In this document: positions 13,803 to 48,635 of the stretch, in pieces
Layout of the letters: each line of letters starts with the position of its first letter
Position numbering within the stretch: the first letter of the stretch is position 1
Source of the DNA: Micromonospora tarapacensis
GTDB taxonomy: Bacteria > Actinomycetota > Actinomycetes > Mycobacteriales > Micromonosporaceae
Assembly (NCBI RefSeq): GCF_019697375.1
Contig: NZ_JAHCDI010000004.1
Span: 2,653,324-2,717,323 of the forward strand
Length of the DNA: 64,000 nucleotides
Direction of reading: 5' to 3'
Position numbers and translations under genes: made by a program
Notes under the pieces: model-generated
What the model saw: the letters and a program-made list of their open reading frames with translations, nothing else
The model's database searches: none
Told to the model about the DNA's origin: nothing

Positions 13803-14867
13803 ATGACTGAAGCAGTACCGGTCACCCCCATCGCAGGATTGATCGTCGTCGGACCACGTTCAGAACACCCACAACTGCACGATCTGCTGACCGAGCGCAC
13901 CGCGCTCTGGCGGCGGGCGCGGATCCCGACCGGTTCGGTGAGCGGCAAGCCTTGGACCGCCGGATCGGTCGAGGCCGCGGTGCGCGACGCCGTCCTATCT
14001 GTGGACTGGGCCGACGACAGCACCGCGGCGGTCGTGGACCCGGAGCATCGGGTCACGACACTCCTCGTACTGCCCGGTGAGGGCCGGACCCGCTGGACCG
14101 GAATTCGGAGCTTGACGGATCTCGAATCGATGCCGATGGCTACCCACGTGCCAGGTGACGCCCTCGCGATATTGGCACCGTGGGCGGGACTGCTTGCTCC
14201 CGAACCGCTCGCGACACACGATTCGACGCGAATCTCAGCGGCTGCGGTGCGGACGTCCGCCCCCGCGCAGCAACACTGGGGGCTGGGCTGGGCGACTCGA
14301 ACGGACCTGGCGCTGCGGCACGCGGTTCTGGACAGTCTGCGGTCGATGTCGTCGGACGCGGTCCCGACATCTGGCCGCGCGGTGGTCGGCGCCTCGGGCT
14401 CGACGGAATGGACGTGGCTCCTCGACGGCTCGCTCAACCTCCTGAACGCGTACAGCCGGGATACCCAGTGGCACTCCCTGCCGGACACCGGCTTCGACGT
14501 CATCACCCGCCATGTTCCGCAGTTCAGCGGGCCGCTGCGGCTCGCGGCGGTCGTACGTCGGTCGTCCAGTGCCGTCGTGGCTGCAGCCTGGGGCCGGCAG
14601 AGCGAGGAGGCGATCGACTACGCCCTCACTGCGGCCCGGACCCGAGACCTGCTGCTCCCCACTACTTCCCCAGCAGCCGTCCCGAGCCCGCCGGCGACCG
14701 CTCCCCTGATCAGCGCCCTGTCCCCGGGCGACGTCCAGCGCCTGCTACACGACATCCACGCCACCGTCTTCGGCACCTCCGGCCAGCGGGTTCTCGGGAT
14801 CCGGGTCGCCGCCGACGCGCTACTCGGTCCGCAGGACCTGGCCTGGGGGCCGGTCTGGCTCGGCTGA
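13803..14867 (+). CDS. RiPP-cluster protein of unknown function, YcaO/ThiF-tail-like
   Basis: A 354-residue protein with a GGAAGG-type site just before ATG 13803. I do not recognise a named family. Its second half (HWGLGWATRTDLALRHAVLDSL, then LLDGSLNLLNAYSRD, then AAWGRQSEEAIDYALTAARTRDLL) has the same order of elements as the C-terminal part of the ThiF-like protein at 27656-29836 (SPAEAAARGLLSAVAYTRII, then LNLRGGRFG, then TWNAAVMTAVRDLL). That resembles a degenerate YcaO fold without the ATP-binding residues. It reads toward the precursor gene, 135 bp upstream of it. A role in precursor recognition or as a cyclodehydratase accessory is plausible but unproven. No signal peptide or membrane segment. 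Confidence 0.6.
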   Translation: MTEAVPVTPIAGLIVVGPRSEHPQLHDLLTERTALWRRARIPTGSVSGKPWTAGSVEAAVRDAVLSVDWADDSTAAVVDPEHRVTTLLVLPGEGRTRWTGIRSLTDLESMPMATHVPGDALAILAPWAGLLAPEPLATHDSTRISAAAVRTSAPAQQHWGLGWATRTDLALRHAVLDSLRSMSSDAVPTSGRAVVGASGSTEWTWLLDGSLNLLNAYSRDTQWHSLPDTGFDVITRHVPQFSGPLRLAAVVRRSSSAVVAAAWGRQSEEAIDYALTAARTRDLLLPTTSPAAVPSPPATAPLISALSPGDVQRLLHDIHATVFGTSGQRVLGIRVAADALLGPQDLAWGPVWLG

Positions 14868-14872
14868 GCCAG

Positions 14873-14898
14873 TCACCAGTGATGTCAGTGGAGTGACA
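14873..14898. promoter_or_regulatory. Two adjacent palindromes upstream of the precursor gene
   Basis: TCACCAGTGA (14873-14882) is followed at once by TGTCAGTGGAGTGACA (14883-14898), a 5-bp inverted repeat with a 6-nt centre. They lie about 105 bp before the precursor start in the only intergenic gap able to hold its promoter. They are candidate operators for the SARP or LuxR-tailed regulator of this cluster. No promoter hexamers are clear. Confidence 0.4.
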
Positions 14899-15002
14899 GC
14901 GAGACGTAGGTCGATCGGCTATCGGCACCCGATGGAATGGTCTTAGTCACCACGGCGGGCCGAACCGGAGACGGGCAGCCCAGACATCGCTGAGGAGTAG
15001 CA

Positions 15003-15191
15003 ATGAACATCGACGACAAGACCAACCTGGCCGACCTGGCGAACGAGATCCTCGAGCTCGAGTCGGAGACCTTCGAGATCTCGGACTACGCGGACGCGAG
15101 CGGCGTCCTGCTGGCCGTGGCCGCCTCGTGCAGCACGAGCTCCACCAGCACCTGCTCCAGCACCACCAGCACCACCTCCTGCTCCGCCTGA
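15003..15191 (+). CDS. RiPP precursor peptide, Ser/Thr/Cys-only core
   Basis: Substrate of the neighbouring modification enzymes. ATG 15003 has a clear GAGGAG site 6 nt upstream. The 62-residue product has an acidic leader rich in Leu, Glu and Asp (LADLANEILELESETFEI), as in thiopeptide and azole-peptide precursors, then a hydrophobic link ASGVLLAVAA. The last 21 residues start SCSTSSTSTCSS and end TTSTTSCSA: 10 Ser, 7 Thr, 3 Cys and one terminal Ala. Every residue except the last is a possible azoline or dehydroamino-acid site. Leader cleavage probably falls near AVAA. It has its own terminator and faces the long enzyme operon. I know no characterised product with this core. Confidence 0.9.
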   Translation: MNIDDKTNLADLANEILELESETFEISDYADASGVLLAVAASCSTSSTSTCSSTTSTTSCSA

Positions 15192-15216
15192 TCGTCCCCC
15201 GATCAGCAGTTTCCTC

Positions 15217-15260: not shown

Positions 15261-15355
15261 TTTGTCAGACACAGCGGTAACAAGACCGGTGACACGACAC
15301 AGCGTGGCGCCCCGCCGGAAGGGGACCAGCGGGGCGCCACACGTCGTACGGCAGC

Positions 15356-17329
15356 TCAGGGGAACGGGTGCGGGACGGTCCGAATGTCCTGGTCGGCCAA
15401 GTCGCTTGTGCGCAGGCCGGCCCGCCGCGGCGCGGTGCGCAGCCGAGGCATCTGCAGGGCCCGTTGCCTGGTCCAGCCGAAGTCGATCGGCAGCAGGCCG
15501 GGGACGATCGTCGACACCGTGTGCAGGCCCATCCGGCGCTGTTCCGGGGTGGTCTGGTCGACCACGATCACGTCGTATCCGGCCCGTTCCAGCTCGTGCT
15601 GGCAGGCACGGAGGTCGAGCAGGAGGTCTCGGGAGTCCGGGTCGCCGGGGGGACGGATGTCCTGGATCGCGCAGTGGCCGGCCGGTTCGAGGTAGTTGCA
15701 AGCGTGTTCGGTCATCCGTGGCAGGCCGAACAGTTGGGGGTGGTCGCCCAGGTTGGCGCAGAGGGTGTAGTCGTCCGCCATGGCGTCGAGCTCGCCCCAG
15801 CGCTCGTTGACCTGCCGGGACAGGTGGGGAATGTAGGTGAGCACCTCCGATAGCGCACCCTCGACGGCCGTCTCCGGGTTGAGGCTGGCGCCGGCGGCGA
15901 AGGAGAGGGCGCCCGCGCCGCCGTCGCGGCGGACCGCGAGGCCGGTGACGACGGGTACGGCCAGGTCGACGCGGCTGTCGAAGGCGTGCACGTCGTACCC
16001 GCGGAAGGCCGCTCGGTCCACCATGGCGCGGACGGCGGGGCTGCGGCACGAGTCGAGGTCGATCTCGGTGAGCGCCAGGTTGCCGTACCAGCCGAGCAGG
16101 AAAGCGTCGCGTTCGATGAGTTCGAGCAGACCGAAGAGGATCGCCTCCTCCAGGCAGCTGCCGATCGCGCAGCCGTTGGAGGATTCGTAGACGAAGTTGT
16201 CGGCGGCCTGCCCGGAGGCGTAGTACGTGAGGCGGGCTGGCACGAGCACGGGCCGGTTGTCACGCAGGGAGTAACCCCACACCCACGGGATCGGTCGGTC
16301 CGGGGCGAACGGTTCGACCATCGGGTCGGTCCGGTACGTCTGCGCCGAGTACTCCCCGCAGCTACGCGGGTCGAGCGCGGTGTCCCCGAGGTCGGTGTAC
16401 GCGGCGACGATCGGGTCGGCCCGGCGTCGCTGGTGGGTGCCGGCGTACCGTTCGAGCCCCTCCAGATACGCGAGGTCCTTGCTGGTGCGGAAGGAGCTGG
16501 CCTGCCCACTCCAGCTGAAGTTGACGAGCCCGGCGTACCCGCGGATGAAGACGCTGCCGGTGACCGGGGAGGTGGTGGGCGAGGTGACGTCGAGCCAGGT
16601 TCCGGCGCCCAGGCTGCCGCAGACCGGGTTGGCCATCGCCCCGGTGGCCAGCGGGTATGACGTTGTCGAGGTGAGCCGGTAGCTCTCCGGGTCCGGCTTG
16701 GGGCGGGACACCAGGTCGAGGGTGGCAAGTTGCGGGGTGGCCTCTTCCAGCGGCGCGCAGTTGGGGCAGAGCGGATCGGTGAGCAGCGGGAAGGTCAGCA
16801 CGTGCAGCGTCTGGAGGTCGATCCGGGTGACCTGTGGCAAGCTGAGGTCGGCAGTGGCGTGCCAGCCGCCGGCGGCCCGCCGGCCGACGGCCCCGGATCG
16901 GCCGAGGACGGCCGCCTGGTACACCGACCAGACGGCGTCCACGACGTAGTCCGGGACGACCGGCCAGGTGCCGGCCGGGATGACGGTCCGGCCGTGTTCG
17001 AGGGCCTCTCGTTCCGATCTGGTCCGCAATCGCTGCCACCGCATCGCAAGGCACTGGCCGCAGGCCTGGGCGTCGGAGACGCCACCCCACGGGCCGATGA
17101 GTACGGCCTGGGCGCTGAGATGCACGTCCGCGACGCCGCGTACGGGTGCGAGGCGGGTGGCGGGCGCACCGAACACGTCGATCGCGCCGACGGTCTGCAC
17201 CGCCGGGCCGGGGCCGTTTGAGGCGTCCCCGACGTCACGCCGGAACCGGTCGGTGAGCGCTTGCTGCAGGGTCAGCCGGGCGAACTCCAACGGGATGGGG
17301 CGAGTGTCGGCTCGCGTCGTCGTGCTCAC
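15356..17329 (-). CDS. YcaO cyclodehydratase 1 (azoline-forming, TOMM type)
   Basis: ATP-dependent enzyme that cyclises Cys/Ser/Thr of the precursor to azolines. The frame is open far upstream, but GTG 17329 overlaps the permease stop as GTGA and is the natural start, giving 657 residues. The N-terminal third has paired cysteines CGQC (about 90-93) and CPNC (about 188-191), like the zinc-binding partner domain fused in such enzymes. The YcaO half carries SSNGCAIGSCLEEAI and ELIERDAFLLGWY with the ATP/Mg ligands. The C-terminus PHPFP matches the proline-rich end typical of azoline-forming YcaO proteins. It is the last gene of the operon. About half its features match YcaO 2, so the pair are diverged paralogues. 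Confidence 0.88.
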   Translation of the reverse strand: MSTTTRADTRPIPLEFARLTLQQALTDRFRRDVGDASNGPGPAVQTVGAIDVFGAPATRLAPVRGVADVHLSAQAVLIGPWGGVSDAQACGQCLAMRWQRLRTRSEREALEHGRTVIPAGTWPVVPDYVVDAVWSVYQAAVLGRSGAVGRRAAGGWHATADLSLPQVTRIDLQTLHVLTFPLLTDPLCPNCAPLEEATPQLATLDLVSRPKPDPESYRLTSTTSYPLATGAMANPVCGSLGAGTWLDVTSPTTSPVTGSVFIRGYAGLVNFSWSGQASSFRTSKDLAYLEGLERYAGTHQRRRADPIVAAYTDLGDTALDPRSCGEYSAQTYRTDPMVEPFAPDRPIPWVWGYSLRDNRPVLVPARLTYYASGQAADNFVYESSNGCAIGSCLEEAILFGLLELIERDAFLLGWYGNLALTEIDLDSCRSPAVRAMVDRAAFRGYDVHAFDSRVDLAVPVVTGLAVRRDGGAGALSFAAGASLNPETAVEGALSEVLTYIPHLSRQVNERWGELDAMADDYTLCANLGDHPQLFGLPRMTEHACNYLEPAGHCAIQDIRPPGDPDSRDLLLDLRACQHELERAGYDVIVVDQTTPEQRRMGLHTVSTIVPGLLPIDFGWTRQRALQMPRLRTAPRRAGLRTSDLADQDIRTVPHPFP

Positions 17330-18081
17330 GAGTTGTTGCTCCAGCGAAAGGTCCTCACCGCGAGGCAGCCGAAGACGACGGTGAACCCGGCCAGGGCCGC
17401 GCTGCTCAGGCCGATGGTCGCGAGGTCGCCGCTGCCGGTGAGGGCGGTCGAGATGCCGTCGTTCATGTAGCGCAGCGGCAGGGCTCGGGAGATGTTCTGC
17501 AGCCACGTGGGCATGAGATCGATCGGCAGGAACGAGCCCGACAGGAACGCCATCGGCACCATGATCGAGTTGGCGATGGCGGCGACGGCCTCGGGGGTGT
17601 TGGCGCGGGATCCGACGACGACGCCCATGGACAGGAACGCCGTGACACCGAGCAACAGCACGGGCAGGGCGAGCGGCCAACTGCCGGCGAGGCTGAGGCC
17701 GAACACCGGCAGCAGGGCCACGCCGACGAACAGCACGGCCTGCACCAGGCCGATCACCAGCGCGCCGGTGTATCGCGAGGCGAGCACCGTGGTCAGCGGT
17801 GTGGGCGTCATCCGGATCAGGCGCAGGATGTCGTCGTTGCGCCACTGCATGAGCGTGAACGCGATGCCGAAGAGGGCGGCGTTGCCGACGCCCCAGGAGA
17901 GCACGCCGGGTGCGATGTAGTCGATGTAGTTACGCCCGGAGCCCTCCACCTCCTGCCCCGCGAAGATCAGGCCGAAGACCACCAGGAAGAGCAGCGGGAA
18001 GGCGAAGGTGAAGAACACTGTGGTCTTGTCGCGTACGGATGCCTTGTAGTTGGCCGTGCCCAGCGCGGCGAATGCGATCAT
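17326..18081 (-). CDS. ABC-2 type transporter permease
   Basis: Membrane half of an exporter, probably for the RiPP or for self-protection. 251 residues from ATG 18081, which overlaps the ATPase stop as ATGA. About six hydrophobic segments are seen, for example FFTFAFPLLFLVVFGLIFAG, GALVIGLVQAVLFVGVALLP and ALPVLLLGVTAFLSMGVVVG, with the conserved ABC-2 stretch MVPMAFLSGSFLPIDLMPTW. Its stop overlaps the GTG of YcaO 1. The longer frame up to 18777 is shadow sequence over the ATPase gene. Confidence 0.88.
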   Translation of the reverse strand: MIAFAALGTANYKASVRDKTTVFFTFAFPLLFLVVFGLIFAGQEVEGSGRNYIDYIAPGVLSWGVGNAALFGIAFTLMQWRNDDILRLIRMTPTPLTTVLASRYTGALVIGLVQAVLFVGVALLPVFGLSLAGSWPLALPVLLLGVTAFLSMGVVVGSRANTPEAVAAIANSIMVPMAFLSGSFLPIDLMPTWLQNISRALPLRYMNDGISTALTGSGDLATIGLSSAALAGFTVVFGCLAVRTFRWSNNS

Positions 18082-19046
18082 GAGCGCGTCTCCGATCCGG
18101 TGAGTTCCAGGTAGACGTCCTCGAGGGTGGCGGTGCGGGTCTGCACCTCGTCGAGGCCGATGAGGTCGCCGACGGCCGCCAGGGTGGCGCCGGCCGTGCT
18201 GGTCTCCAGCACCACGGAGCCCCCCTCGACGGTGACCCGGATGACGCCGGGAAGAGCCCCGGCCTGGTCGGTGGAGAGCTGGCCGACCGGCACCATGACG
18301 CGGGTGGGTACGTGCGCCGCGCCGACGAGCCGGTGCGGGGTGTCGAGCGCGATGACGGCGCCGGAGACGACGATGGCGACGCGATCGCAGAGCGCCTCGG
18401 CCTCGTCGAGGTGGTGGGTGGTGTAGACGATCGTGCGGCCCTGCGCCTTCAGCTCGCGCAGCACCTGCCACAGGTCGCGGCGAGCCTGCGTGTCGAGCGC
18501 CGCGGTGGGCTCGTCGAGGAAGACCAGCTCCGGCTCGTGGATGAGGGCGCCGGCGATGGCGAGCCGCTGCCGCTGACCGCCGGAGAGATCCCCGACCCGC
18601 TTGTCCGCCTCCCCCCTCAGCCCGACCAGCTTCAGGGCGGGGCCGGCCGCCGTGGCCGGCAGTCCGTACAGGGCTGCCACCGTCGCAAGGTGCTCGCGGG
18701 CCGTCAGCCGGGCGAAGAACGCGCTCTTCTGCGTCTGCAACCCGAGGCGGGGCAGCAGTGCCACGTTGCGGGGCCACGGGGGCATCCCGAGCACCTCGAT
18801 GGTGCCGGCGTCCGCCTGGCGCAGGCCCTCCATGATCTCGATCAGGGTCGTCTTGCCGGCGCCGTTGGGGCCGAGGATGCCGAAGAACTCTCCCCGTCGG
18901 ATGGTCAGCGAGATGCCGTCGACGGCCTGCACGTCGCCGTAGCGCTTCCGGACGCTGTCCAACACGACGGCCGACTCCGTGCCTGCCTCCACGATGGATT
19001 CCTCACTGCTCAGTGTCGACGATTCGAAGGCGTGCGTCGTGGTCAT
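18078..19046 (-). CDS. ABC transporter ATP-binding protein (DrrA/NatA-like)
   Basis: ATPase partner of the adjacent ABC-2 permease. 322 residues from ATG 19046, overlapping the end of the M50 frame by 4 bp. It has Walker A GPNGAGKTTLIEIMEGL, Q-loop LGLQTQKSAFF, signature LSGGQRQRLAIAGAL, Walker B LVFLDEPTAALD and switch His in VYTTHHLDE. The C-terminal ~90 residues form the small extra domain common in antibiotic-exporting ABC-2 systems. Placement between processing protease and permease supports export of the modified peptide. No separate immunity gene is obvious, so this pair may also provide self-resistance. Confidence 0.9.
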   Translation of the reverse strand: MTTTHAFESSTLSSEESIVEAGTESAVVLDSVRKRYGDVQAVDGISLTIRRGEFFGILGPNGAGKTTLIEIMEGLRQADAGTIEVLGMPPWPRNVALLPRLGLQTQKSAFFARLTAREHLATVAALYGLPATAAGPALKLVGLRGEADKRVGDLSGGQRQRLAIAGALIHEPELVFLDEPTAALDTQARRDLWQVLRELKAQGRTIVYTTHHLDEAEALCDRVAIVVSGAVIALDTPHRLVGAAHVPTRVMVPVGQLSTDQAGALPGVIRVTVEGGSVVLETSTAGATLAAVGDLIGLDEVQTRTATLEDVYLELTGSETRS

Positions 19047-20277
19047 TTCTGGACCTCTCCTCTGCGGCCGTCGGCCGGCTTGCGGGTCCCCGTGAACGAC
19101 GTGCGAGGCACCACGAAGACCATCCCGATCAGTACGGCCAGTCCGGCCGAGATGGCCCCGGCGACCGGCCCGAAGTGGGCGGTGGCAACACGTTGCGCGA
19201 CCAACGCGACGATCGTCACGATGCTCACGACCAGAGCCGTCCCGCCCAGGGCGTACGCGCAATAGGCGATCCGGGCGGCCCGGGGGTATCCCGCCAGGCC
19301 CGGGCCGCGGCCGACCATGCCGGCCAGCGCCCGGCCGGCGAAGCGCCGGCTGCCACTGGCGTAACGCAGCATGCCCAGCGAGTGGGCGAGCATCTTGTAA
19401 CCGTCCATCGGTGGCAGCGGCAGCAGGAACAGCGCGGCCTGGGCGAGCCCCAGCAGCAGGAACGCGCCGAGCAGCGCCCGGGCCGGTTCGCCCGCCGGCA
19501 GCAACAGCCAGGCCGGCAGCACCGGCAGCAGCAACAGCAGGTTCACCAGAATGCCGGCCGACGCGGTCGTCACCTGCTGCCGGCGGGTTCGCAGGAACAG
19601 GTAGTCGTCGACTCGGCAGTACATGACGACCATGGGCAGCTGCCAGCGGATCCCGATCTCGCCAACCGTGCCGCCGAAGTGGTGCGCCACCACGCCGTGC
19701 CCAAGCTCGTGCAGGCCCATGGTGACCCACAGCGCGGTGGCGACCGCCATCAGCGCGAACGGGTCGTCGAGCACCCGGGCGGTGTCGGCGACCAGAGCCG
19801 GCCCGTGCCACATCACAGCGGCCAGCATCAGCAGAATCGCCGCGCACGCGGGGACGAGGAATCCGCCCCGGAATGTGAACCCGAAGAAGCGGTGCAGGCT
19901 GGCCGTGGTGGCCGTGGCGTCACTGACCAGCCGCAGCGAGCCGCCGAGGAGTTTGCGCCGGGCCGCCGGCGGCGGATCGACCGCCGGCGCCGGGCACCCT
20001 CGATGAGGCCCCGGGCGGCCAGCAGCCCGAGCAGCTGCTGCCAGGCGGCCGACCCGAGCGAACGACCGAAGGTGCGGCCGTACGCCTCAGCGATCTCCTC
20101 ACGCGACGTCACCCCGTCGAGCCGAACGAGGACGAAGTGCTCCTTCACCCCGATCTCGAACGTCTTGTCCGCAGCCGGATCCCGCACCAGGTGCACCGAC
20201 GTAGCGTCACGCAGGTACCGCCCGCTGATCTGGATGTCGGCGCGCACCGCCGGCCCGGCGGCGACGGCGGTGGTCAT
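19043..20277 (-). pseudogene. PqqD-like plus M50 metalloprotease membrane protein, frameshifted
   Basis: In RiPP clusters such PqqD-M50 fusions are thought to bind the leader and cut or help export it. The first frame, from ATG 20277 (ATGA overlap with the LanB-C stop), encodes a PqqD-like winged helix (RYLRDATSVHLVRD, FVLVRLDGVTSREEIAEAY). It then turns into Arg-rich nonsense near 19995. The correct continuation lies one base off (VDPPPAARRKLLGGSLRLV) and leads into ILLMLAAVMWHG and the ORF ending at 19043. That part has the zinc motif HELGH about 40 residues in, several membrane helices and the second motif PPMDGYK. A single-base indel in a GGC/CGG-rich tract between 19980 and 20000 explains both halves. 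Sequence error is possible. Confidence 0.75.
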
Positions 20278-21332
20278 GCCCGCTCGCCATGCTCGCGCAG
20301 CGCCCGGCCCAGCATGTACGACAGGTACGCCTCGTCGGTGATCGTGACGTGCAGCCGGTTGTTGGTCATGTGCATGTACGGCGACAGCAGCAGCGGCAGC
20401 GAGGTCTGCGGGTCGGTGGGGATCTCGTCGCGGGTGTCGTCCCAGGAACGGAACACGAGCTGCCCGCGCTCGGTCAGCTCGGCGGCCCGACGGCGCAGCT
20501 CAAGGCAGTGTTCGGCCCAGCCGCGCAGCAGCCCGGGTAGGTCTTGGCCCCCGGTGGTCCGCAGCGAATGCCGGATCTCGGCGAAACGCCGGCCGATCTC
20601 GGCGCCCGTCGCGGCGTACTGCTGCTGGTATTCGTCGTCGCCCGCGTAGTTGGTGTCCGGGAACGCGCTGCGCCAGAACTTGTGGTAACGGTTCAGATAG
20701 TCGACGAGGTCGTCGGTGTCCGGCAGGAAGCACGCCGACATCACCATCATCAGCTGCGCCGACGTGCCGAGCAGCACGGTGCGCAGGTGCAGATTCTTCG
20801 TGCGGATGGCGTCGACGACCATCTCGCTCGAGTGCGCGAAGTGCCACTCGGCGAGTTCGATCCCGGCTGCGCCGCCGTACTTGCCGTACTCCGGCTCGTA
20901 CGCCTCGTAGCTGTAGGTGTTGTTCTCGCGCAGGTTCATCCGGCCGTCGCCACGCAGGTAGCTGGATTTCTCGTCGGCGGAGAACTCCATGTCGAACAGG
21001 GAGTTGTAGAAGTCCTCCAGGAACCCGGCGTCGACCTGGTACAGCGCCGGCCGGACCCGCAGGTACTCGGTAATGGCCGCCTCCGCTCGCCGCTTCACCT
21101 CGGCGGTGGCGGCCACGGTCACCGGCTTGAGCCGCAGCCGTACGTGCGGACCCTCCAGCCAGTAGTTGATGAAGAAGTGGCCGGCGATCAGCCCGTCGGC
21201 CTGGAGCCCGCCGATCAGCGGACGCACGCACTGCACGAGCAGCGGCTGCGGGTTGGCCGCGTAGTAGATGTGGATGGCCTGCCACTCGCCGGCTGCCACG
21301 TCCGTCACGGGGTCGATGAGGGTCTGCGTCAT
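20274..21332 (-). CDS. LanB C-terminal / thiopeptide-type protein (probable glutamate elimination)
   Basis: 352-residue member of the SpaB-C/thiopep_ocin family. In characterised systems these proteins either eliminate glutamate to give Dha/Dhb, or form the pyridine ring of thiopeptides by [4+2] cycloaddition. The N-terminal signature IHIYYAANPQPLLVQCVRPL then FFINYWLEGPHVRLRLKP is clear, and the C-terminus SPYMHMTNNRLHVTITDEAY is typical. ATG 21332 overlaps the previous stop as ATGA; the frame to 21800 is shadow. It is the only such protein in the window and directly follows the glutamylation enzyme, so I favour the elimination role, as in goadsporin-type clusters. A cycloaddition role cannot be excluded from sequence. 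Confidence 0.82.
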   Translation of the reverse strand: MTQTLIDPVTDVAAGEWQAIHIYYAANPQPLLVQCVRPLIGGLQADGLIAGHFFINYWLEGPHVRLRLKPVTVAATAEVKRRAEAAITEYLRVRPALYQVDAGFLEDFYNSLFDMEFSADEKSSYLRGDGRMNLRENNTYSYEAYEPEYGKYGGAAGIELAEWHFAHSSEMVVDAIRTKNLHLRTVLLGTSAQLMMVMSACFLPDTDDLVDYLNRYHKFWRSAFPDTNYAGDDEYQQQYAATGAEIGRRFAEIRHSLRTTGGQDLPGLLRGWAEHCLELRRRAAELTERGQLVFRSWDDTRDEIPTDPQTSLPLLLSPYMHMTNNRLHVTITDEAYLSYMLGRALREHGERA

Positions 21333-22363
21333 GGCTGCCCGTCCTGTCGCGTCGCGGGGGGAAGGATCGAAGGGGAACGGAGGGTCTCGACGGCCAGCTC
21401 GGCGACGTGTTCGCCGCGGCTGGACCGCACGTGCAGCGCGTCCTCGTCGGGCAGCATCTCCCGGAACACCACCCGCGCTCCCGGGCTCTGCAGCAGTCCG
21501 TCGAGGGCGTACAGGGAGAGGTAACTGGTGAAGTCCACGTACTGCGGCTTGCCGCTGCGCGATCGGCCGTCCCCGGCGGTCTCGGTGACCGTGGCGAACG
21601 TGCGGTCCGGCAGGCCGTGCGTCCGCCGCCAGCGCTGCCAGGCCAGGAACCAGTCCTCGTCGGCGACCTGCGGCGACAGCCGAGGCAGGTCCTGGCCGGC
21701 GACGGTCCAGGCCCGACGGCTCAACACCAGGTTGCGATGGCGCACCCGTGGCCGGTGCCGCACCCCGTCGCGCGGCTCCGCCTCGGGCACTCCGCCCCAC
21801 AGGTTCACCGGGGCCAGCGCCGTCGGCGACAGCAGCAGCAGGGTCCGGGGGATCTCCGGAAGCGCCAGCGGCACCAGGTAGCCGAGGTAGACCGGGATGA
21901 CCTCACGGCCCAGCCGGTGTGACCGCAGCACCAGGCGTTCCTCGGCCACGTCGTGCTCCAGGTAGAGATCGTCGAGGTGGAGTTGGTCCTCGGCCGGCAC
22001 GGAGCTGGTCTCGCCCGGGCAGACGATCTGGTAGCGGGTCAGCCGACCGTGCAGGTTGAGGTTGGTGACCACCGCGCCACCGGTGATCTCCGCGAGGACC
22101 GCGCCGTCCGGTTCGATCTCCCCCGCCTGCCGCAGCAGCTGTTGCGCCAGCCCGTCCGGCTCCAGCTCGTCCGGCGGGGCGTCGAAGCAGTGCGTGAAAC
22201 GGCTGAACGGGAAGGACAACCCGCCGTACGACTGGTTCAGGACCGCGACCGGGTCATCGGGCCGGTCCGCGAGCTGGACGAAGTGGCTCTGCGGGGCGAA
22301 CCGGGTGGTCACCGGGGTCAGGTGCGCGGCGACGGCGTCGATCGTCGCCTCGTCGAGCCGCAC
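21329..22363 (-). CDS. LanB-like glutamylation enzyme, C-terminal part (second frame)
   Basis: 344 residues that continue the Lant_dehydr_N fold: SYGGLSFPFSRFTHCF, then VIPVYLGYLVPLALPEIPR and LLSPTALAPVNLWGG. On its own this is only the second part of the tRNA-Glu-dependent enzyme that activates Ser/Thr. It starts at a GTG (22363) inside the last 46 bp of the upstream frame, with only GGGGAG touching the start, which is poor spacing. Reading across a one-base shift at the G4 run (minus strand, 22369-22366) joins the two parts as AGEVRLDEATIDAV, exactly what the family needs there. I infer one gene of about 930 residues split by an indel, or less likely a true split or programmed -1 shift. 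Confidence 0.75.
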   Translation of the reverse strand: MRLDEATIDAVAAHLTPVTTRFAPQSHFVQLADRPDDPVAVLNQSYGGLSFPFSRFTHCFDAPPDELEPDGLAQQLLRQAGEIEPDGAVLAEITGGAVVTNLNLHGRLTRYQIVCPGETSSVPAEDQLHLDDLYLEHDVAEERLVLRSHRLGREVIPVYLGYLVPLALPEIPRTLLLLSPTALAPVNLWGGVPEAEPRDGVRHRPRVRHRNLVLSRRAWTVAGQDLPRLSPQVADEDWFLAWQRWRRTHGLPDRTFATVTETAGDGRSRSGKPQYVDFTSYLSLYALDGLLQSPGARVVFREMLPDEDALHVRSSRGEHVAELAVETLRSPSILPPATRQDGQP

Positions 22364-24108: not shown

Positions 24109-24133
24109 CACGGACTCCGTTCGACTCGATTGA

Positions 24134-25749: not shown

Positions 25750-27666
25750 TCACGGGAACGGATGCGGGACGAGGTGCAGGTCCGCGACCTCGAGGTCGTG
25801 ATCCCGCAGGCCGGCGGCGGCAGGTGCGGCGCGCATACGCGGCAGGTGCGGCGCGCGCTGCCGGTCCCAGCCGAAGTCGATCGGCAGGAGCCCGGGCGCC
25901 AGGACGCTCACCGTGTGCAGGCCCAGGTCCCGCTGCTCGGGCAGCGTCTGGTCGACCACCACCACGTCGAAACCCTGCGCGGCGACGTCGGCCACGCAGC
26001 GCCGCAGGTCCACGGCGAGGTCGTCGGAGAGCAATTCGGCGCGGTCGGCGGCCGGGTAGACCTCGGACACGGCCCGGGACTCCCGAGGGGCCACGAAGAA
26101 CGCCGCGTGCTCGGCCATCTCGGGCAGGCCGTACACGAGCGGGTGGTCGTGCAGCGCCTGGACGTTGGCGAAGTCGGCGACCATCGTCCGATAGCGCGCC
26201 TCCTCCCGCTCGGTGCGGCTGCGCAGGTTGACCGAATCGGTGGCGATCTCGCAGAGGGCCGCCGCCATCGCCGTCTCCGGGTCGAGGCTCGCGCCGGCCC
26301 CGAAGCAGATGGCGCCCAGGCCGCCGCCGATGCGGGTCGCCACCCCGACGACGACCGGGATGCCGAAGGTGATCCGGGCGTCGAAGAACCGGGCCCGGTA
26401 TCCGCACATCTCCAGTCGGTCGACCATCCACCGGGTCTCGGTGCGGGCACTCGTCCGTGGGTCGATCTCCGGCAGGGTCTTCCGGCCGTACCAGGAGAGC
26501 AGGAACGCGTCGCGCTCGACGACCTCCATCAGGCCGTGGTAGATCGCCTCCTCGGCGCTGCCGCCCGACGCACAGCCGTTCGAACTCTCCTGCACGAACC
26601 GGTTCTCCAGCCCCGGCGCGTGGTAGTAGGCCAGGATCTCCGGCACCAGCACCGGCCGGTCGTCGCGCAGCGAGTGACCCCAGACCCACGGGATCGGCCG
26701 ATCCGGCGCGAACGGTGTCACCCGTGGGTTCGCCGCGTAGAACGCGTCCGAGTAGAGACCGCAGACCCGCGGGTCGACCGCCGCGTCGCCGAGTTCGTCG
26801 TACGACGCCGACACCACGGTCCGTTTGGCCTTGGCGCGCATGCCGGCGATCCGTTCGAGCCCTTCCAGGACGCCGATCCGGGCGCTGCGGGCATAGCTCT
26901 CGGCGTGCCCACCCCAGTAGGTCTCCCGCAGGTAGCTGCCCGAACGCAGCAGGAATCCGCCGCTGACCGCCGAGGTGGAGGGCGACACCGGGTCGTAGGC
27001 GACCAGGGGACCGACCGGCCCGCACAGCGGGTTCGCGAACGCCTCCACCGTGAACGGGTAGTCGTCGACCGACCGCAGCCGAAACGAGTCGGGCGCTGAC
27101 TTACGGGTGCTCCCGATGGTCGGGCGAGCGGCCTCCGGGGTGTCCGGCACGCTGCGGCCGCAGGACGGGCACTCGGCGTCCGGCACCACCGGGTAGCGGC
27201 GTACCGCCAGCACGGTGAGGTCGACCACGTACACCGCGGCGTACGCGTCCCGGGCCGTCGTCGGGCCGGCCGCACGATCGAGATGCGCGTCGACGAGCGC
27301 CGCGATGGCGTCGCCGTTGAAGGCCAACCGGAATGGTGACGGCCCGGCCTGCCGGGTCGGGCCGCCCAACTCCAGGGCGTCACGCAGGGAGCGCTGCCGA
27401 ACCGCCTGCCACCGCCGGGCCAGGCACCGGGGGCACGCCGGGTGTTCGGCGTTGCCCTCGAACGGCCCGACGAGGGCGTACTGGCCGTACAGGTGCACGG
27501 TCACCGACGCCGCTTCCGGGCCGTTCGACACGGCCAGTTCATCGCGTACGCCGAGCGGCGCGACCGAGACCGTCAGGTCCCCGCCGAGTCGCCTGCGCAG
27601 CCACTTTTCGAGCTCGGCGCAGTCGAGCGCCCAGTGCTCCGGGGAGGCGACGAGGTCAGGCCGCAT
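25750..27666 (-). CDS. YcaO cyclodehydratase 2 (azoline-forming, TOMM type)
   Basis: Second azoline synthetase of the cluster, 638 residues. ATG 27666 lies 11 bp inside the end of the ThiF-like gene, so the two are coupled. Same architecture as YcaO 1: cysteine pairs CPRC (about 78-81) and CPSC (about 166-169) in the N-terminal third, then SSNGCASGGSAEEAI and MEVVERDAFLLSWY in the ATP-binding YcaO domain, and the C-terminal PHPFP. Being adjacent to the ThiF-like partner, it is the likelier general cyclodehydratase. YcaO 1, at the operon end, may act on a subset of residues such as Ser/Thr. That division is inference. Confidence 0.88.
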   Translation of the reverse strand: MRPDLVASPEHWALDCAELEKWLRRRLGGDLTVSVAPLGVRDELAVSNGPEAASVTVHLYGQYALVGPFEGNAEHPACPRCLARRWQAVRQRSLRDALELGGPTRQAGPSPFRLAFNGDAIAALVDAHLDRAAGPTTARDAYAAVYVVDLTVLAVRRYPVVPDAECPSCGRSVPDTPEAARPTIGSTRKSAPDSFRLRSVDDYPFTVEAFANPLCGPVGPLVAYDPVSPSTSAVSGGFLLRSGSYLRETYWGGHAESYARSARIGVLEGLERIAGMRAKAKRTVVSASYDELGDAAVDPRVCGLYSDAFYAANPRVTPFAPDRPIPWVWGHSLRDDRPVLVPEILAYYHAPGLENRFVQESSNGCASGGSAEEAIYHGLMEVVERDAFLLSWYGRKTLPEIDPRTSARTETRWMVDRLEMCGYRARFFDARITFGIPVVVGVATRIGGGLGAICFGAGASLDPETAMAAALCEIATDSVNLRSRTEREEARYRTMVADFANVQALHDHPLVYGLPEMAEHAAFFVAPRESRAVSEVYPAADRAELLSDDLAVDLRRCVADVAAQGFDVVVVDQTLPEQRDLGLHTVSVLAPGLLPIDFGWDRQRAPHLPRMRAAPAAAGLRDHDLEVADLHLVPHPFP

Positions 27667-29836
27667 GGACCGAACCGCCCGTCAACACGATCCGGGCCGT
27701 GTGGAGGCCACCGGCGAGCAGGTCCGGCGGGGTGGTGCGGATCAGCAGCACGTCGCCGCCCGCGTTGCGGACCCCGTCGAGCAGGTCGTCCCACGTGACG
27801 TCCGGTACGTCGGCCGGGGCGCCGGTCACCGCGAGCACGGCCGGGTCGAAATCGGCGACCAGGTCGTCTCCCGGGTCGACGTCGGCGTCGCGTTCCCGGC
27901 CCAGCTGCACCCGGCCGAGCAGGTCTCGCACGGCGGTCATCACGGCGGCGTTCCAGGTCAGCTCACTCCCGGCCGCCCACAGGACGCCCCCGGTCCGCGG
28001 GTCGGTGGCGTGGGCGATTGCCACGGGCGAGGTGCCGAACCGTCCGCCGCGCAGGTTCAGCACGGTGACATCCACCCCGGCGTTCGCCGCGGACCGGCGC
28101 AGGAAGACGATCTCCGGGTTGTCGATGTCGGAGAGCTGCGCCGGGGCCACCTCGGCGTGGCCACGGAGTGCGTCGATGATCCGGGTGTACGCGACGGCCG
28201 ACAGCAAGCCCCGCGCGGCGGCTTCGGCTGGGGATGTCCCCGCCCCGGCACCCGCCGAGGTGGCGATGACCGGCCGGTGGGCGTTGTGCTCGCCGAACGG
28301 CCGGACCGCGGCGGCCGGCACTCCGATCTCCTCCTTCGTGAGCAGCGACGTCGCCGTCACGACCGGCCCGGTTGCGGGTGCCGTGCCGCTGGACGTGACG
28401 ATCTCGGCGACCGGCACCGTCCGGTCCGGCGCGGCCTGTTCGGCGGGTAGGGGGACACCGTGGTCCACGTAGCTGACCGCGGCCGTGCGCAGGGCTGCGA
28501 GCCGGGCGCCGGCCAGGGTGTGCAGGTCGAACGTCGCCACCTCCCGGGTGCGCCCCGGGCCGGGCGAGAATCGCAGGGTGCTCACCTTCAGCGGGGTCTG
28601 GGTCCACTGCTCGTCGCTGAACTCGGCGAAGACGCCGACATGGGGGTGGATCAGCACCTCGCGGTTGGTCAACTCGGCCAGCAGCTCCGACGCCTCGACC
28701 TGCGCCTCGACGATCCGGGTCTGCCCGATGGCGAGGTCCGTCGTGACCGGCTCGTCGAGCACCGCGTCGCCGGAGCAGAACCCACAGGCCGGGTGCGGCA
28801 GCAGCGGCTCGGTGACCACGTCGAGCGACTCGAGGTCCTGGATGATGACGCTGCCGGCCGTCTCCGCCGGTAGGGCGCCGGTCAGGGTCCGGAACACCTC
28901 GTACCCGAGGAGGTTCCCGATCATCGCGGCGAGCGGCCGGCCCATCGCGGCGTCCCGGCGGGCCGTGGCGAGGGAGACGCCCTGCCACAGGTCGGCGGCG
29001 GCCGCCGGGTCGCCGTTGGCGGCGAGGCGCAGTGCGGCGCAGAGCCAGCAGCCGGTACTGCCGGCCGTCATGTGCGGGCCGATCACGGCACGCCGGCCGA
29101 ACGTCCACGCGGTGAGCAGGTGACGCCCGGCCGGCACCCGCTCGCTCAGCAGGTCCAGCGTCTGTCGGGCGCCGGCGGACCCGCCGGTCACGACGACGAC
29201 GTCGTACGCCGCGAGTTCGTCCCAGGTGTAGCGGGGGCCGGCTGCCGGGACGACCTCGATGTCGACCGGGCAGCCCTCGTCGGTGAGCGCCCGCACCTCG
29301 GCCCGCACCTCGGCGAGCCGGTTGTCGGGATGGTCCAGGCTCGGCATGATGCCGATGCCCGCCGACCCGTTGCGCACCAGACTTAGGACGCACCATCGTG
29401 CCACCAGGTCGTCGCCCAAGACCGCCACCCGGGCATCGCGGAACGTCATGAACCGGGCATCCGCGCCGTCGGCGTAGTGATCCACGTACGCGATCTGCGG
29501 CGCGAACCGCCCGGCGACCGCCACCTGTCCCACGCCGGTGGCCCGGGTTGCCAGCGGCACGTCGCGGGCGAAGCCACGCTCGTACAGCGTCCCGACCAGG
29601 TTGGCGACCATGGCCCGCTGCTCCGCGCCGAGCGCCGCGCCGAGGTCCGCCATCTGGTGGTCGCCGGTGAGGTACGGGACGATCAGGGTGGCCAGCCGGT
29701 ACGCGCTCCGGCCGGTCAACTGGAAGCCGCCGAGGGAGTTGTGGAAGAGGACGCCGTCCGGCGTCTGGGTGTAGAGAACGTCCCGGCGGATGCGTGGCCG
29801 GGTCTGGGCGATGTCGTCGAAGGTCGCTGCGGCCAT
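27656..29836 (-). CDS. ThiF/E1-like TOMM partner protein (ocin-ThiF type)
   Basis: Leader-binding partner that presents the precursor to the YcaO enzyme. 726 residues from ATG 29836; the frame to 30043 overlaps the SARP gene and is shadow. The N-terminal ~90 residues look like a PqqD-type recognition element (LYTQTPDGVLFHNSLGGFQL). A Rossmann-like E1 core follows (RVAVLGDDLVARWCVLSLV, then YDVVVVTGGSAGARQTL), without an obvious ATP-binding GxGxxG. The paired cysteines GCWLC and ACGFC suit the structural zinc of this fold. The C-terminal third is a degenerate YcaO-like region similar to the product of 13803-14867. First enzyme gene after the regulator. Confidence 0.82.
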   Translation of the reverse strand: MAAATFDDIAQTRPRIRRDVLYTQTPDGVLFHNSLGGFQLTGRSAYRLATLIVPYLTGDHQMADLGAALGAEQRAMVANLVGTLYERGFARDVPLATRATGVGQVAVAGRFAPQIAYVDHYADGADARFMTFRDARVAVLGDDLVARWCVLSLVRNGSAGIGIMPSLDHPDNRLAEVRAEVRALTDEGCPVDIEVVPAAGPRYTWDELAAYDVVVVTGGSAGARQTLDLLSERVPAGRHLLTAWTFGRRAVIGPHMTAGSTGCWLCAALRLAANGDPAAAADLWQGVSLATARRDAAMGRPLAAMIGNLLGYEVFRTLTGALPAETAGSVIIQDLESLDVVTEPLLPHPACGFCSGDAVLDEPVTTDLAIGQTRIVEAQVEASELLAELTNREVLIHPHVGVFAEFSDEQWTQTPLKVSTLRFSPGPGRTREVATFDLHTLAGARLAALRTAAVSYVDHGVPLPAEQAAPDRTVPVAEIVTSSGTAPATGPVVTATSLLTKEEIGVPAAAVRPFGEHNAHRPVIATSAGAGAGTSPAEAAARGLLSAVAYTRIIDALRGHAEVAPAQLSDIDNPEIVFLRRSAANAGVDVTVLNLRGGRFGTSPVAIAHATDPRTGGVLWAAGSELTWNAAVMTAVRDLLGRVQLGRERDADVDPGDDLVADFDPAVLAVTGAPADVPDVTWDDLLDGVRNAGGDVLLIRTTPPDLLAGGLHTARIVLTGGSVHAA

Positions 29837-29900: not shown

Positions 29901-31703
29901 TCACGCCGCGAGAGCTGTGATCCGTTCGCCGTAGCCATCGACGGCGAAGGCCCGGACCAGTTCGTGCATGGTGTAGGTGCCGGAGCCGCCCTCAAGGGCG
30001 CCGGCGTCAGCCAGCAGGTCGAGGATCTGTCCGGTGGCGGCAACGGGCCGGTCGAGGACGCCGGCGAGGTCGGCGAGGGTCATAGATTCCGGGAACGAAC
30101 ATCGGGCGATCCGGACGAGCGCGTCGCTGAGCCGGGGATCGAGCTCGTCGAGCCAGGCCCCGAAGGTCCCGGTGATCGACATCCGCGGGTCGTCGATGAG
30201 GGACATCCGGGCAAAGCGGTCGCCCCGCAGCCAGGTGACACAGTCGGCGATCCGGGTTCGCGGGCGAACCTGCAATCGAGCCGCCATGATCCGCAGGGCT
30301 AGCGGGAAGTTCCCGCAGAGCGCCGCCAGCTGGTGCGCTGCGCCGGGTTCGGCTGCGGTCCGATCCGGTCCGAGTAGGACCGAGAGGAGTTCGAAAGCCT
30401 CGTCGTCGGTGAACGGGTCGAGCCGGTGCACCCGGCCACCGTGCGTCGCCACCAGGCCGGTGAGGCTCATCCGGCTGGTGATGAGCACCGAGTGTCCGCC
30501 GTCGAGCGACAACACCCCGCGGATCTGCTCGGCGTCGAGCACGTCGTCCAGGATGAGCAAGGCCGGGTCGGCCGCCCCGGCAACCTGGAGCCGCACCAGC
30601 TCGGCGGTCAGCTCCACGGGCGTCCGGGCCGTACCGTCGGGCCGGCGCATTCGGAGCGTGGCGTGGCCTGCCACGGACCTGGCCCGGAGTTGGTCCGCGA
30701 CGTGTAGCGCCAGCGCGGTCTTGCCGATGCCCGGTGCGCCGGTCAGCACGACCGTGCGCGGGCCCGGCCGATCGTCGCCGAGCCACCCGGTCAGCAGTGC
30801 GACATCCGCCGCCCGCCCAGTGAAGTCGCTGGTCGCCATCGGCGGAGGTGGCTCCTCCGTCCTCGCCGCGCCACCGGTGGTGATCGGGGCATCGTTGGCC
30901 GCGCCGACGGGCGTCAACTCGTCACCGCGCAGAATCGCGGCCTCCAGCCGTTGCAGCGACGGGCCTGGGTCCAGGCCCAACTCGTCGAGGAGGTACCGCT
31001 TGACGTTGCGGTACTCGACCAACGCCTCGGTCTGCCGGCCGGTGCGGTACAGCGCCTCGATGAGCTGCTCCGCGAAGCGCTCGTGCCCCGGATGCGAGCG
31101 GGCGGCTCGCCACAGGTCGGGCAGCACCTCCCGGCAGCGGCCGAGCACCAACTTGAGGTCGTGCACCCGTTCGGACGCCCGCAGCCACTCCTCCGTCAGC
31201 CGCGGCGCCTCGTCCCGGCACAGCGCGTCGGACGGCACATTGGCCAGCAGCGCGCCGCGCCACAGCCCCAGGCCCTCCGTCAGGAGGTGCAGCTCGGACT
31301 CGGGATCCGTCTCGTTCTCGGCCCTGCCCACCAATTGGCGAAACCGCAGCAGGTCGAGCGTCTCGGCGTCCGCGACGATGCGGTAGCCGCCCGGAACTGA
31401 CTCGATCACGTTGCCGGCGATGCCGTGCTTGGCGAAGAGTCGCCGCAGGCGAAGGACGCAGGTCTGGAGCGCGGCCTTGGCCGACGCCGGCTGTTGCTCG
31501 CCCCAGATCGCGCCGAGCAACGAGTTGATCGACACCACCGCGTTGGGGCGAAGCAGCAGGGCCGCCAACAGAGTGGTCGGCTTGGATGGCGGGAGCACGG
31601 CGACGTCACGCCCGTTGGTCAGGTTCAGCGTGCCTAGGATTTGAAAACTCATGCGCCGAAATTGGGCTACGCCCACAGTTTCAACATTCGCGAGACTCGT
31701 CAT
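29901..31703 (-). CDS. SARP-type pathway regulator with NB-ARC ATPase domain
   Basis: Probable activator of the RiPP operon, which begins 64 bp downstream on the same strand. I prefer ATG 31703, with AGGAC 8 nt upstream; starts at 31763 and 31652 are in frame. Order of domains: OmpR-like winged helix (FQILGTLNLTNGRDVAVLPP, then TTLLAALLLRPNAVVSI), a bacterial transcriptional activation domain with TPR-like helices ending LGLDPGPSLQRLEAAIL (both together the SARP core), then a P-loop GAPGIGKTALALHVA and Walker B-like ALLILDDVLD of an NB-ARC ATPase, and a short C-terminal helical part. About 600 residues, shorter than AfsR, which has a long TPR tail. Confidence 0.87.
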   Translation of the reverse strand: MTSLANVETVGVAQFRRMSFQILGTLNLTNGRDVAVLPPSKPTTLLAALLLRPNAVVSINSLLGAIWGEQQPASAKAALQTCVLRLRRLFAKHGIAGNVIESVPGGYRIVADAETLDLLRFRQLVGRAENETDPESELHLLTEGLGLWRGALLANVPSDALCRDEAPRLTEEWLRASERVHDLKLVLGRCREVLPDLWRAARSHPGHERFAEQLIEALYRTGRQTEALVEYRNVKRYLLDELGLDPGPSLQRLEAAILRGDELTPVGAANDAPITTGGAARTEEPPPPMATSDFTGRAADVALLTGWLGDDRPGPRTVVLTGAPGIGKTALALHVADQLRARSVAGHATLRMRRPDGTARTPVELTAELVRLQVAGAADPALLILDDVLDAEQIRGVLSLDGGHSVLITSRMSLTGLVATHGGRVHRLDPFTDDEAFELLSVLLGPDRTAAEPGAAHQLAALCGNFPLALRIMAARLQVRPRTRIADCVTWLRGDRFARMSLIDDPRMSITGTFGAWLDELDPRLSDALVRIARCSFPESMTLADLAGVLDRPVAATGQILDLLADAGALEGGSGTYTMHELVRAFAVDGYGERITALAA

Positions 31704-31970
31704 TGCGTCGTCCTGCTCAACAGATACACACCGTTTCTCCCCCCACTCGACACCGATGACCATTGCGGGATGATTTCGACCGCGCTCCCCTCTTGCAGGA
31801 TTAGCGCTTTCGCTCTGCGGTGCTGTAACAAGTTTGTTGAGTTGGCAATAGGAGGGTCAAGGAACAACCGGCGGTAAGAAGCTGCATGGCAGCTTTCCCA
31901 CGAATGGCAGGGCAGCCTCGTCGAAGGATCGCCGCTGGTAGCGGGCGGTCGGCCGAGCCGCCATCCGCGG
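31704..31970. promoter_or_regulatory. Promoter region of the SARP-led RiPP operon
   Basis: A 267-bp gap of visibly lower GC upstream of the SARP gene and after the M20 stop. It contains AACAA-GT-TTGTT (31827-31838), a short palindrome that could be an operator. No clear sigma hexamers can be named. Confidence 0.4.
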
Positions 31971-33233
31971 TCACCGCCGCAGGTGGGCGAGCGCGGCGAG
32001 CGTCATCGCCGAGATGCCGGTCGGCAGGGCCAGCGCCACGTGCGGGGCGAACGCGGGAGAGTGGTTGGCGGGCACCGGGACCGTCGCGGCCGCCGACCAT
32101 TGGCGAGGGCTGGTGACGCCCAGCAGCCAGTAGACCGTCGGTATGCCCGAATGGCCGTGCACATCGCTGCCCTCGTCGCCGAAGAGCGGGAAATCCTCGG
32201 TCGCCATCGCTCGTGGCCAGGACGCGATCCGCGAGGCGCCAAAGGCGGCCTCGTGCGCCGCGCGGACCACGGCGGTCGCCGTGGCATCCGGCAGGTTCAC
32301 CGGCGAGGAGGAGACCGTACGGATCTCGGGATCGGAGTCCGCTCCGGAGGCCGCGCACTCGGCCCTGACAATCCGGGTGACCGCCGCGACCACCCGGTCC
32401 AGGGTGGCGGTGGCGAACGCGCGGATCGTCAACCCGATGACGGCCTCGGCGGGAATGACGTTGCCCGTCTCGCCGGCTCGCAGCGAGCCGACGGTGAGCA
32501 CGACCGGCTCAGCCGGGTCCACCTCCCGGGACACGACCGTCTGCAGTCGGAGCACGACGGCCGCGGCGATGACCACGGGGTCGATGGTGAGGTGCGGCGT
32601 CGCCGCGTGACCGCCCCGACCGAGAATCGTGATCTCCAGGGAGACGCTGCCGGCCATCACCGGGCCGGCGCCGAACGCCAGCATCCCCGCCGGAAAGGGC
32701 GCGCTGTGCTGAGCGAGGACGACATCGGGTCGTCCGGTCAGGTCGTACAGGCCCGCCGCCAGCATGGCGCGGGCCCCCTCCAGGGTCTCCTCAGCGGGTT
32801 GCCCGACGATGGCGAGCGTCCCACTCCATTGCTCGCGATCGGCGGCCAGCACGGTGGCGGCCCCGGCAAGACAGGCGAGGTGCAGGTCATGCCCGCAGGC
32901 ATGCATCACCGGCACCTCCCGGCCGGTGGGACCGGCGGCCACCTCCCCGCTCGCGTACGGCAGGCGGGTCTCCTCCTTGACCGGCAGCGCGTCGAGTTCG
33001 GCGCGGAGCAGGACTGTCGGGCCGACGCCGTTACGCAGGACGGCCACCACGCCGTGGCCCCCGACCTCGGTGGACACTCGATAGCCGTCACGGCGTAGCC
33101 GCTCGGCGAACTTGGCTGCCGTCCGCGCTTCCGCGCCAGACAGCTCGGGATGGGCATGCAGGTCGATGTAGAAGGCGGCGGCCTCCCGTGAGGCGACGCT
33201 CGGGCCAGACAGGGGCGCAGAGGCTGATTTCAT
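31971..33233 (-). CDS. M20-family amidohydrolase (HipO/AmaB-like)
   Basis: Zinc-dependent amidase/carboxypeptidase-like enzyme of 420 residues. ATG 33233 follows AAAGGA with an 8-nt gap. Family marks: DLHAHPELSG, RAELDALPVKEE, HACGHDLHLACL with metal ligands, GQPAEETLEGARAML with the catalytic Glu, and the dimerisation domain with GRGGHAATPHLTIDPV. No signal peptide. It shares strand and direction with the RiPP operon, 267 bp ahead of the SARP gene, and is divergent from the LuxR-tailed regulator. It could hydrolyse an amide during precursor trimming or detoxify the product. It could equally be a neighbour with an unrelated job. Confidence 0.82.
   Translation of the reverse strand: MKSASAPLSGPSVASREAAAFYIDLHAHPELSGAEARTAAKFAERLRRDGYRVSTEVGGHGVVAVLRNGVGPTVLLRAELDALPVKEETRLPYASGEVAAGPTGREVPVMHACGHDLHLACLAGAATVLAADREQWSGTLAIVGQPAEETLEGARAMLAAGLYDLTGRPDVVLAQHSAPFPAGMLAFGAGPVMAGSVSLEITILGRGGHAATPHLTIDPVVIAAAVVLRLQTVVSREVDPAEPVVLTVGSLRAGETGNVIPAEAVIGLTIRAFATATLDRVVAAVTRIVRAECAASGADSDPEIRTVSSSPVNLPDATATAVVRAAHEAAFGASRIASWPRAMATEDFPLFGDEGSDVHGHSGIPTVYWLLGVTSPRQWSAAATVPVPANHSPAFAPHVALALPTGISAMTLAALAHLRR

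Positions 33234-48561: not shown

Positions 48562-48635
<74 letters not shown>

Follow-up and report, generated by a model that had tools for sequence, protein, structure and literature searches.

We analysed a stretch of 64,000 nucleotides from Micromonospora tarapacensis (assembly GCF_019697375.1, contig NZ_JAHCDI010000004.1, positions 2,653,324 to 2,717,323), referred to below as the window, which carries a gene cluster for a ribosomally synthesized and post-translationally modified peptide (RiPP). A minus-strand run leads from a SARP-type regulator at 31.8 kb through an ocin-ThiF-like protein (F protein), a YcaO cyclodehydratase (YcaO2), an azoline dehydrogenase, LanB N-type and LanB C-type proteins, a PqqD-M50 protease and the ATPase and permease of an ABC exporter to another YcaO cyclodehydratase (YcaO1) at 15.4 kb. 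The precursor gene, at 15003–15191, is divergent from this run. Gene finding and family scans agree that all parts named by a first-pass annotation, made from the sequence alone, are present. The extent it proposed, 13803–33233, takes in an M20 hydrolase gene (31971–33233) that is also a member of the cluster, and leaves a LuxR-type gene (33449–34489) outside its end. We draw the unit as 13803–34489, because the M. chokoriensis locus (L002, and L153 from what is probably the same strain) is collinear with the window over 13440–34659, at a DNA identity of 91–96%. Its features are the following.

13803–14867, plus strand: 354-residue protein of no known family, adjoining the cluster in Micromonospora.
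15003–15191, plus strand: precursor peptide of 62 residues (TIGR03892, 41 bits, cut-off 25).
15356–17329, minus strand: YcaO cyclodehydratase 1, a C-D fusion (TIGR03604, 348 bits, cut-off 219; TIGR03882, 80 bits).
17326–18081, minus strand: ABC-2 permease of the exporter (PF01061, 88 bits).
18078–19046, minus strand: DrrA-like ABC ATPase of the exporter (PF00005, 99 bits; TIGR01188, 222 bits, below the cut-off of 312).
19043–20277, minus strand: PqqD-like/M50 membrane protease with an HExxH motif, presumed leader peptidase, in two frames (PF02163, 31 bits).
20274–21332, minus strand: LanB C-type protein, read as a glutamate eliminase (PF14028, 147 bits).
21329–24147, minus strand: LanB N-type glutamylation protein (PF04738 in both of two overlapping reading frames, 22318–24147 and 21329–22363).
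24134–25714, minus strand: SagB-type flavin mononucleotide-dependent azoline dehydrogenase (TIGR03605, 142 bits, cut-off 78; PF00881, 48 bits).
25750–27666, minus strand: YcaO cyclodehydratase 2, a C-D fusion (TIGR03604, 316 bits, cut-off 219; TIGR03882, 106 bits).
27656–29836, minus strand: ocin-ThiF-like F protein, presumed leader-binding scaffold (TIGR03693, TIGR03882 and PF02624).
29901–31763, minus strand: SARP/AfsR-type regulator with BTAD and NB-ARC domains (PF03704, 127 bits).
31971–33233, minus strand: M20 metallohydrolase (PF01546, 86 bits).
33449–34489, plus strand: LuxR-type regulator, divergent from the M20 gene (PF00196, 29 bits).

A profile of the LanB C-type protein located relatives at 166 confirmed places in species genomes, and the best 80 of these were taken for comparison: three loci from Micromonospora, one from Sphaerimonospora, one from an actinomycete bin and the rest from Streptomyces, among them S. 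lavendulae CCM 3239 (L020) and S. griseus (L068). Fifty-eight of them are longer than 20.5 kb (long loci below). In 55 of the 58, nearly all of Streptomyces, the 12 query pieces from the SARP gene through YcaO1 lie in identical order and on identical strands, which excludes a chance association of genes. The precursor gene is divergent beyond YcaO1 in 52 long loci, and the M20 gene comes next to the right of YcaO1, beside the precursor in Streptomyces loci, in 54. A LuxR match occurs in 24 of the 58; identity of this protein is 27–36% among the relative loci and 98% in the M. chokoriensis locus. The HExxH motif of the M50 protein is kept in all 80 relatives. Its match to the daptide protease model (62 bits) lies below the cut-off of 300, and its 149-residue piece had no family match in Pfam/NCBIfam-type scans, the PqqD label being that of the first-pass annotation. 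None of the 10 cluster genes checked contains a bldA-type TTA codon.

We also looked for further members. Clustering of open reading frames (ORFs) from the 58 long loci revealed no extra group in more than four loci, except for one in 11 loci that runs antisense to cluster genes. The same procedure recovered the known cluster genes, the precursor excepted, in 24–57 of the 58 loci, so that an equally visible gene would have been detectable and a small one perhaps missed. Since the DNA of the long loci ends near the SARP gene, 20 kb on that side were taken from 12 Streptomyces genomes. The SARP gene was found in all 12 of these stretches, and beyond it they share no common gene and hold no LanB-C match.

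The azole-forming enzymes are well preserved. For motif counts we used the 63 relatives in which the two YcaO genes are separate, short loci having mixed the two. The ExxERD motif is kept in both YcaO1 and YcaO2 in all 63, and a C-terminal PxPxP, a sign of azoline-forming YcaO proteins, is present in 62 of 63 relatives for each. YcaO1 and YcaO2 are 45% identical. The F protein matches TIGR03693 with 63 bits (below the cut-off of 562) and TIGR03882 with 60 bits (above the cut-off), and its C-terminal part is degenerate and YcaO-like (PF02624, 45 bits). ExxERD appears in one of 69 F protein rows, that of locus L081, where the match falls on a YcaO gene instead. Judged from these motifs, the cluster probably encodes two active YcaO enzymes served by a single scaffold, the F protein. 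It thus holds a YcaO cyclodehydratase together with an azoline dehydrogenase, the combination by which linear azol(in)e-containing peptides are recognized.

We next consider whether the LanB C-type protein is a glutamate eliminase or a [4+2] pyridine synthase of the kind that closes the macrocycle of thiopeptides. As controls we used 13 thiopeptide-type loci, each encoding both enzymes (26 proteins). In the tree, 12 LanB-C rows of the family form one clade (support 100/100) on the eliminase side, with the 13 pyridine synthases set apart at 99/96. The motif H-x3-NR[LV] is present in 31 of 31 family members and 13 of 13 eliminases, and in none of the 13 pyridine synthases. At the position aligned with residue 321 of the window protein, His occupies all 31 family members and all 12 scorable eliminases (the position of the 13th was removed by alignment trimming), whereas all 13 pyridine synthases have Tyr. 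By tree and motif, then, the single LanB C-type protein groups with glutamate eliminases and not with pyridine synthases. Two observations weigh against this assignment. The predicted fold (predicted local distance difference test, pLDDT, 83.5) is most similar to the pyridine synthase TbtD, and the best PDB profile matches are TbtD and PbtD. The pyridine-synthase model matches only this LanB-C protein in the genome, with 86 bits where the cut-off is 325; six of the 13 control pyridine synthases also fall below that cut-off. By fold similarity alone the two enzymes cannot be told apart. A role as pyridine synthase, hinted at by the PDB profiles and a match to NF045556, was rejected on the control tree and motifs, with the fold still leaning that way.

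The first-pass annotation had counted one LanB-C protein, and no second one came to light. Searching 81 loci with the 26 control proteins returned 1632 matches in the one LanB-C gene and 124 at the dehydrogenase gene, and none to a further LanB-C protein. Some controls are fused to a dehydrogenase, and three of the 124 matches lie just outside the marked stretch. The 12 SARP-side stretches likewise hold none. Elsewhere in the genome, two other PF14028 matches, at a distance of 1.4 Mb, fall in open frames 1010 and 906 residues long (G000:C4:4096733-4099538), and perhaps belong to a separate lanthipeptide-type cluster. The LanB N-type protein matches its solved relatives 6ec7 with 66 bits and the goadsporin protein 9jhq with 39 bits.

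The window precursor appears to divide into a 41-residue leader and a 21-residue core of Ser, Thr and Cys ending in Ala, SCSTSSTSTCSSTTSTTSCSA. Unmodified, this core has a calculated monoisotopic mass of 1975.73 Da. A precursor-like ORF was found in 62 of the 80 relative loci; it was not found in the other 18, many of them on short contigs. The long loci L018, L028, L064, L067, L069 and L076 showed no precursor even on a looser look. Codons were counted in 52 precursors from 51 sources, the window among them, that passed a stricter pattern. Sixteen of the 21 core positions are invariant. The last 16 core codons differ per pair by a mean of 3.74 synonymous and 0.28 nonsynonymous codon differences, compared with 2.02 and 0.80 for 19 leader codons. 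These counts indicate that the core is nearly invariant and held by purifying selection. RiPP cores are usually variable. Among the matches listed, 75 of 120 precursor homologues (of 141 found) terminate in TSTCSSTTSTTSC[STC]A. The LanB-C proteins encoded in the Streptomyces loci share 58–70% identity with that of the window. Public annotation files these precursors under the NCBI family name 'thiazolylpeptide-type bacteriocin'.

Starting from the observed gene content, order and conservation, the family and motif assignments, the eliminase grouping and the conserved core, we propose the following pathway, in which the individual reactions, their order, export and the leader site are read from protein families. 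The F protein would bind the leader at its conserved ETFEISDY stretch and present the core to both YcaO cyclodehydratases, which would form azolines at Cys and at part of the Ser/Thr residues, for oxidation to azoles by the SagB-type dehydrogenase. The LanB N-type protein would then glutamylate leftover Ser/Thr using Glu-tRNA. Elimination of the glutamate by the single LanB C-type protein would give dehydroalanine (Dha) and dehydrobutyrine. This order is assumed on the precedent of goadsporin, in whose biosynthesis GodF apparently requires azoles to be in place before glutamylating (PMC5303826). Ring closure is not expected, because neither a pyridine synthase nor a LanC protein was found. The PqqD-M50 membrane protease would cut the leader, the ABC pair would export the product, and the M20 hydrolase may trim it or turn it over, all under the likely control of the SARP and LuxR proteins. 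We therefore read the locus, with a probability of about 77%, as a RiPP cluster whose product is a linear peptide that combines azol(in)es with dehydroamino acids and is no thiopeptide despite the NCBI name. The first-pass annotation had likewise expected azole formation plus LanB-type dehydration and a linear, non-thiopeptide product, and the fall of LanB-C among the eliminases by tree and His motif supports this.

Two alternatives are comparably improbable. In the first, the product would be a macrocyclic thiopeptide, with the single LanB-C protein acting as a pyridine synthase, or both eliminating and cycloadding. Besides the fold and profile matches to TbtD and PbtD, the precursor speaks for it and against our interpretation: it matches TIGR03892 above the cut-off, as thiopeptide precursors do, and its core starts with Ser-Cys, as is found in many thiopeptides. 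On the other side stand the tree and motif tests against 13 loci with both enzymes and the 86 bits scored against the pyridine-synthase model, a shortfall seen in six of the control synthases too. In addition, no other eliminase was found in the cluster, which would leave a pyridine synthase with no source of Dha unless one protein does both. We consider a thiopeptide unlikely.

In the second, the cluster would be decaying in this strain, with real breaks in the LanB N and protease genes and no product made here. Each of these two genes is indeed out of frame through one break in the window. LanB N is a single ORF in 77 of the 80 relatives, counted from 880 codons upward (median 943 codons), and PqqD-M50 is so in 78 of 80, counted from 330 codons upward. 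Of the three relatives lacking a full LanB N, two are placed at the end of a contig or on a short one; no such reason applies to the third, L023. The remaining cluster genes of the window are open. Moreover, in another, unrelated 20-kb stretch of the same genome, where 16 of 18 M. chokoriensis ORFs were matched, two genes continue in a second frame, although a single stretch makes a small sample; a third two-frame ORF there sits opposite one of the two and may be no gene. Because nearly all relatives are unbroken and this stretch also has two frame-split genes, we favour small indels spread through the assembly: the breaks are probably assembly errors rather than cluster decay, which we regard as an improbable explanation. 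A functional frameshift in LanB N was rejected, the relatives being unbroken. The 'split' LanB N-type enzyme of the first-pass annotation was correctly identified, PF04738 lying in both pieces, while the split itself reflects a frame break of the window sequence.

A LanB-type lanthipeptide, formed by addition of Cys to dehydro residues and with a minor role for the YcaO proteins, would fit LanB N, LanB C and a core with Cys and Ser/Thr, and is very improbable given that Pfam matches of the cluster ORFs include no LanC-type cyclase, the mark of class I lanthipeptides, and that two YcaO proteins, the F protein and the azoline dehydrogenase are conserved as a set.

How does the linear azole and dehydroamino acid peptide that we prefer compare with known systems? 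The core strings were not found in open-licence literature. Queries by enzyme names brought up goadsporin, coryneazolisins, dehydrazoles and lactazole, and among the matches listed no characterised cluster with this gene set was recognized. Goadsporin (GodA–H) is described as an azole and Dha peptide whose cluster encodes a YcaO protein, a dehydrogenase and a LanB in two parts, GodF for glutamylation and GodG for elimination (PMC4603692, PMC5303826). Cox et al. (2015) grouped it with clusters that have no [4+2] protein (PMC4603692), and the window cluster shares its split LanB without pyridine synthase. The goadsporin cluster is described as including an N-acetyltransferase, a cyclodehydratase of the fused kind and a putative transporter that bears a peptidase domain (PMC4603692, PMC5303826). 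The window cluster differs in its two YcaO proteins, F protein, separate M50 protease, M20 hydrolase and Ser/Thr/Cys core ending in Ala, and no GodH-like N-acetyltransferase occurs among Pfam matches of its ORFs or the conserved gene groups of the 58 long loci. Coryneazolisins of Corynebacterium, compared by description only, combine two D (YcaO) proteins and LanB-like dehydratases with no [4+2] enzyme, as the window cluster does, and have highly similar precursors (PMC4603692). One of their D proteins is described as discrete and one as fused, whereas both window YcaO proteins are C-D fusions by TIGR03882 and TIGR03604; their core of Cys/Ser/Thr is interrupted by Ile, whereas the window core has no Ile.

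Split-LanB thiopeptides of the thiomuracin/GE2270 type share the TIGR03892-type precursor, F protein, YcaO, dehydrogenase and split LanB with eliminase; the window cluster departs from them in having two YcaO proteins and no pyridine synthase that could be found. Some thiopeptide clusters also have an extra fused cyclodehydratase, according to Cox et al. (PMC4603692). Dehydrazoles (carnazolamide), too, are described as combining azoles with dehydrated Ser, through a DUF4135/LanM-type dehydratase and with a nitrile-hydratase-like leader (PMC10676384); the window ORFs have no Pfam match to DUF4135 and carry the LanB families PF04738 and PF14028 instead. We class the predicted product with the dehydrated azole peptides, as one resembling goadsporin or the coryneazolisins that has a gene set and core of its own. 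The label 'uncharacterised' given at first pass stands, in that the cluster is uncharacterised yet already seen in public annotation. What had not been foreseen is that the cluster is common, that its precursor already belongs to an NCBI-named family and that coryneazolisins are similar in enzyme logic.

Counted by LanB-C match alone, not by whole cluster, 45 of 295 Streptomyces genomes score at least 479 bits and 48 at least 268 bits. Among 160 Micromonospora genomes, the window's own included, LanB-C matches reach at least 654 bits in 4, 495–543 in 14 and 346–398 in 21. In the one locus examined from the middle group, both the gene order and the core end TSTCSSTTSTTSCSA are kept. The one locus examined from the lowest-scoring group, L149, is a sister type with three Cys-rich precursors (ORF starts at about 433, 2360 and 2713; one ends TSSSCSCSSCCSCSTSSCCSCSTSCSSCG) and the same enzyme types at 33–46% identity. 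The Streptomyces locus L028 is a shortened or rearranged cluster: from about 13.3 kb the permease, YcaO1 and precursor are absent from their usual place, and a LuxR-type match follows the ABC ATPase. A plasmid search returned two distant matches only (37–42% identity). The 354-residue protein at the left end has nine homologues, of which the five with a named host are all from Micromonospora, and a tblastn match in three of the 80 relative loci (L002–L004). It has no Pfam/NCBIfam match, its AlphaFold model (pLDDT 37) is unusable, and BLASTP and hhalign gave nothing for a relationship to YcaO or F proteins.

Several elements flank the cluster. Four 29-nucleotide repeats of the GGGACCATCCCCGCGCGGGCGGGGAGCAC type with 61-base spacing form a small CRISPR-like array at 12955–13166. 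Matches to group II introns lie within 1184–4430, two of them to D1D4-2 on the minus strand and one to a group II intron on the plus strand. Tyrosine recombinases are encoded at 11598–12629 and 47489–48635, the second adjoining a tRNA-Pro gene. A mobile island at tRNA-Pro was considered and rejected, no duplicated tRNA end being found in the window or in two nearby 20-kb stretches. Transposase ORFs occupy 35125–37951; at 36525–37951 a DDE transposase is covered by a pair of ORFs that overlap in different frames, possibly a further frame break of the assembly.

What the product does can be addressed tentatively. It may represent a new structural class, a linear Ser/Thr/Cys peptide modified nearly throughout by two cooperating YcaO proteins on one F protein together with a LanB pair, that serves actinomycetes as a conserved, goadsporin-like signal or morphogen and not as a variable weapon; we consider this possible, with the odds against it. 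Such a role fits the fixed core, the pair of regulators, the dedicated exporter and the apparent lack of a target-protection gene among the conserved genes. It would explain both that apparent lack and a nearly invariant core beside LanB-C enzymes that diverge to about 60% identity. An exchanged trait such as an antibiotic would fit the presence of the cluster in only part of each genus and its 91–96% identity to M. chokoriensis, compared with 79–92% in one sampled backbone stretch. The paired YcaO proteins offer a testable system for how Cys, Ser and Thr are divided between two cyclodehydratases. The thiopeptide-type name of the precursor would steer product searches to the wrong chemistry. 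About one in seven sampled Streptomyces genomes has this LanB-C family, for which we found no reported product; once a single compound is isolated, it would account for a large family of gene clusters and could point to a signal or target conserved among actinomycetes.

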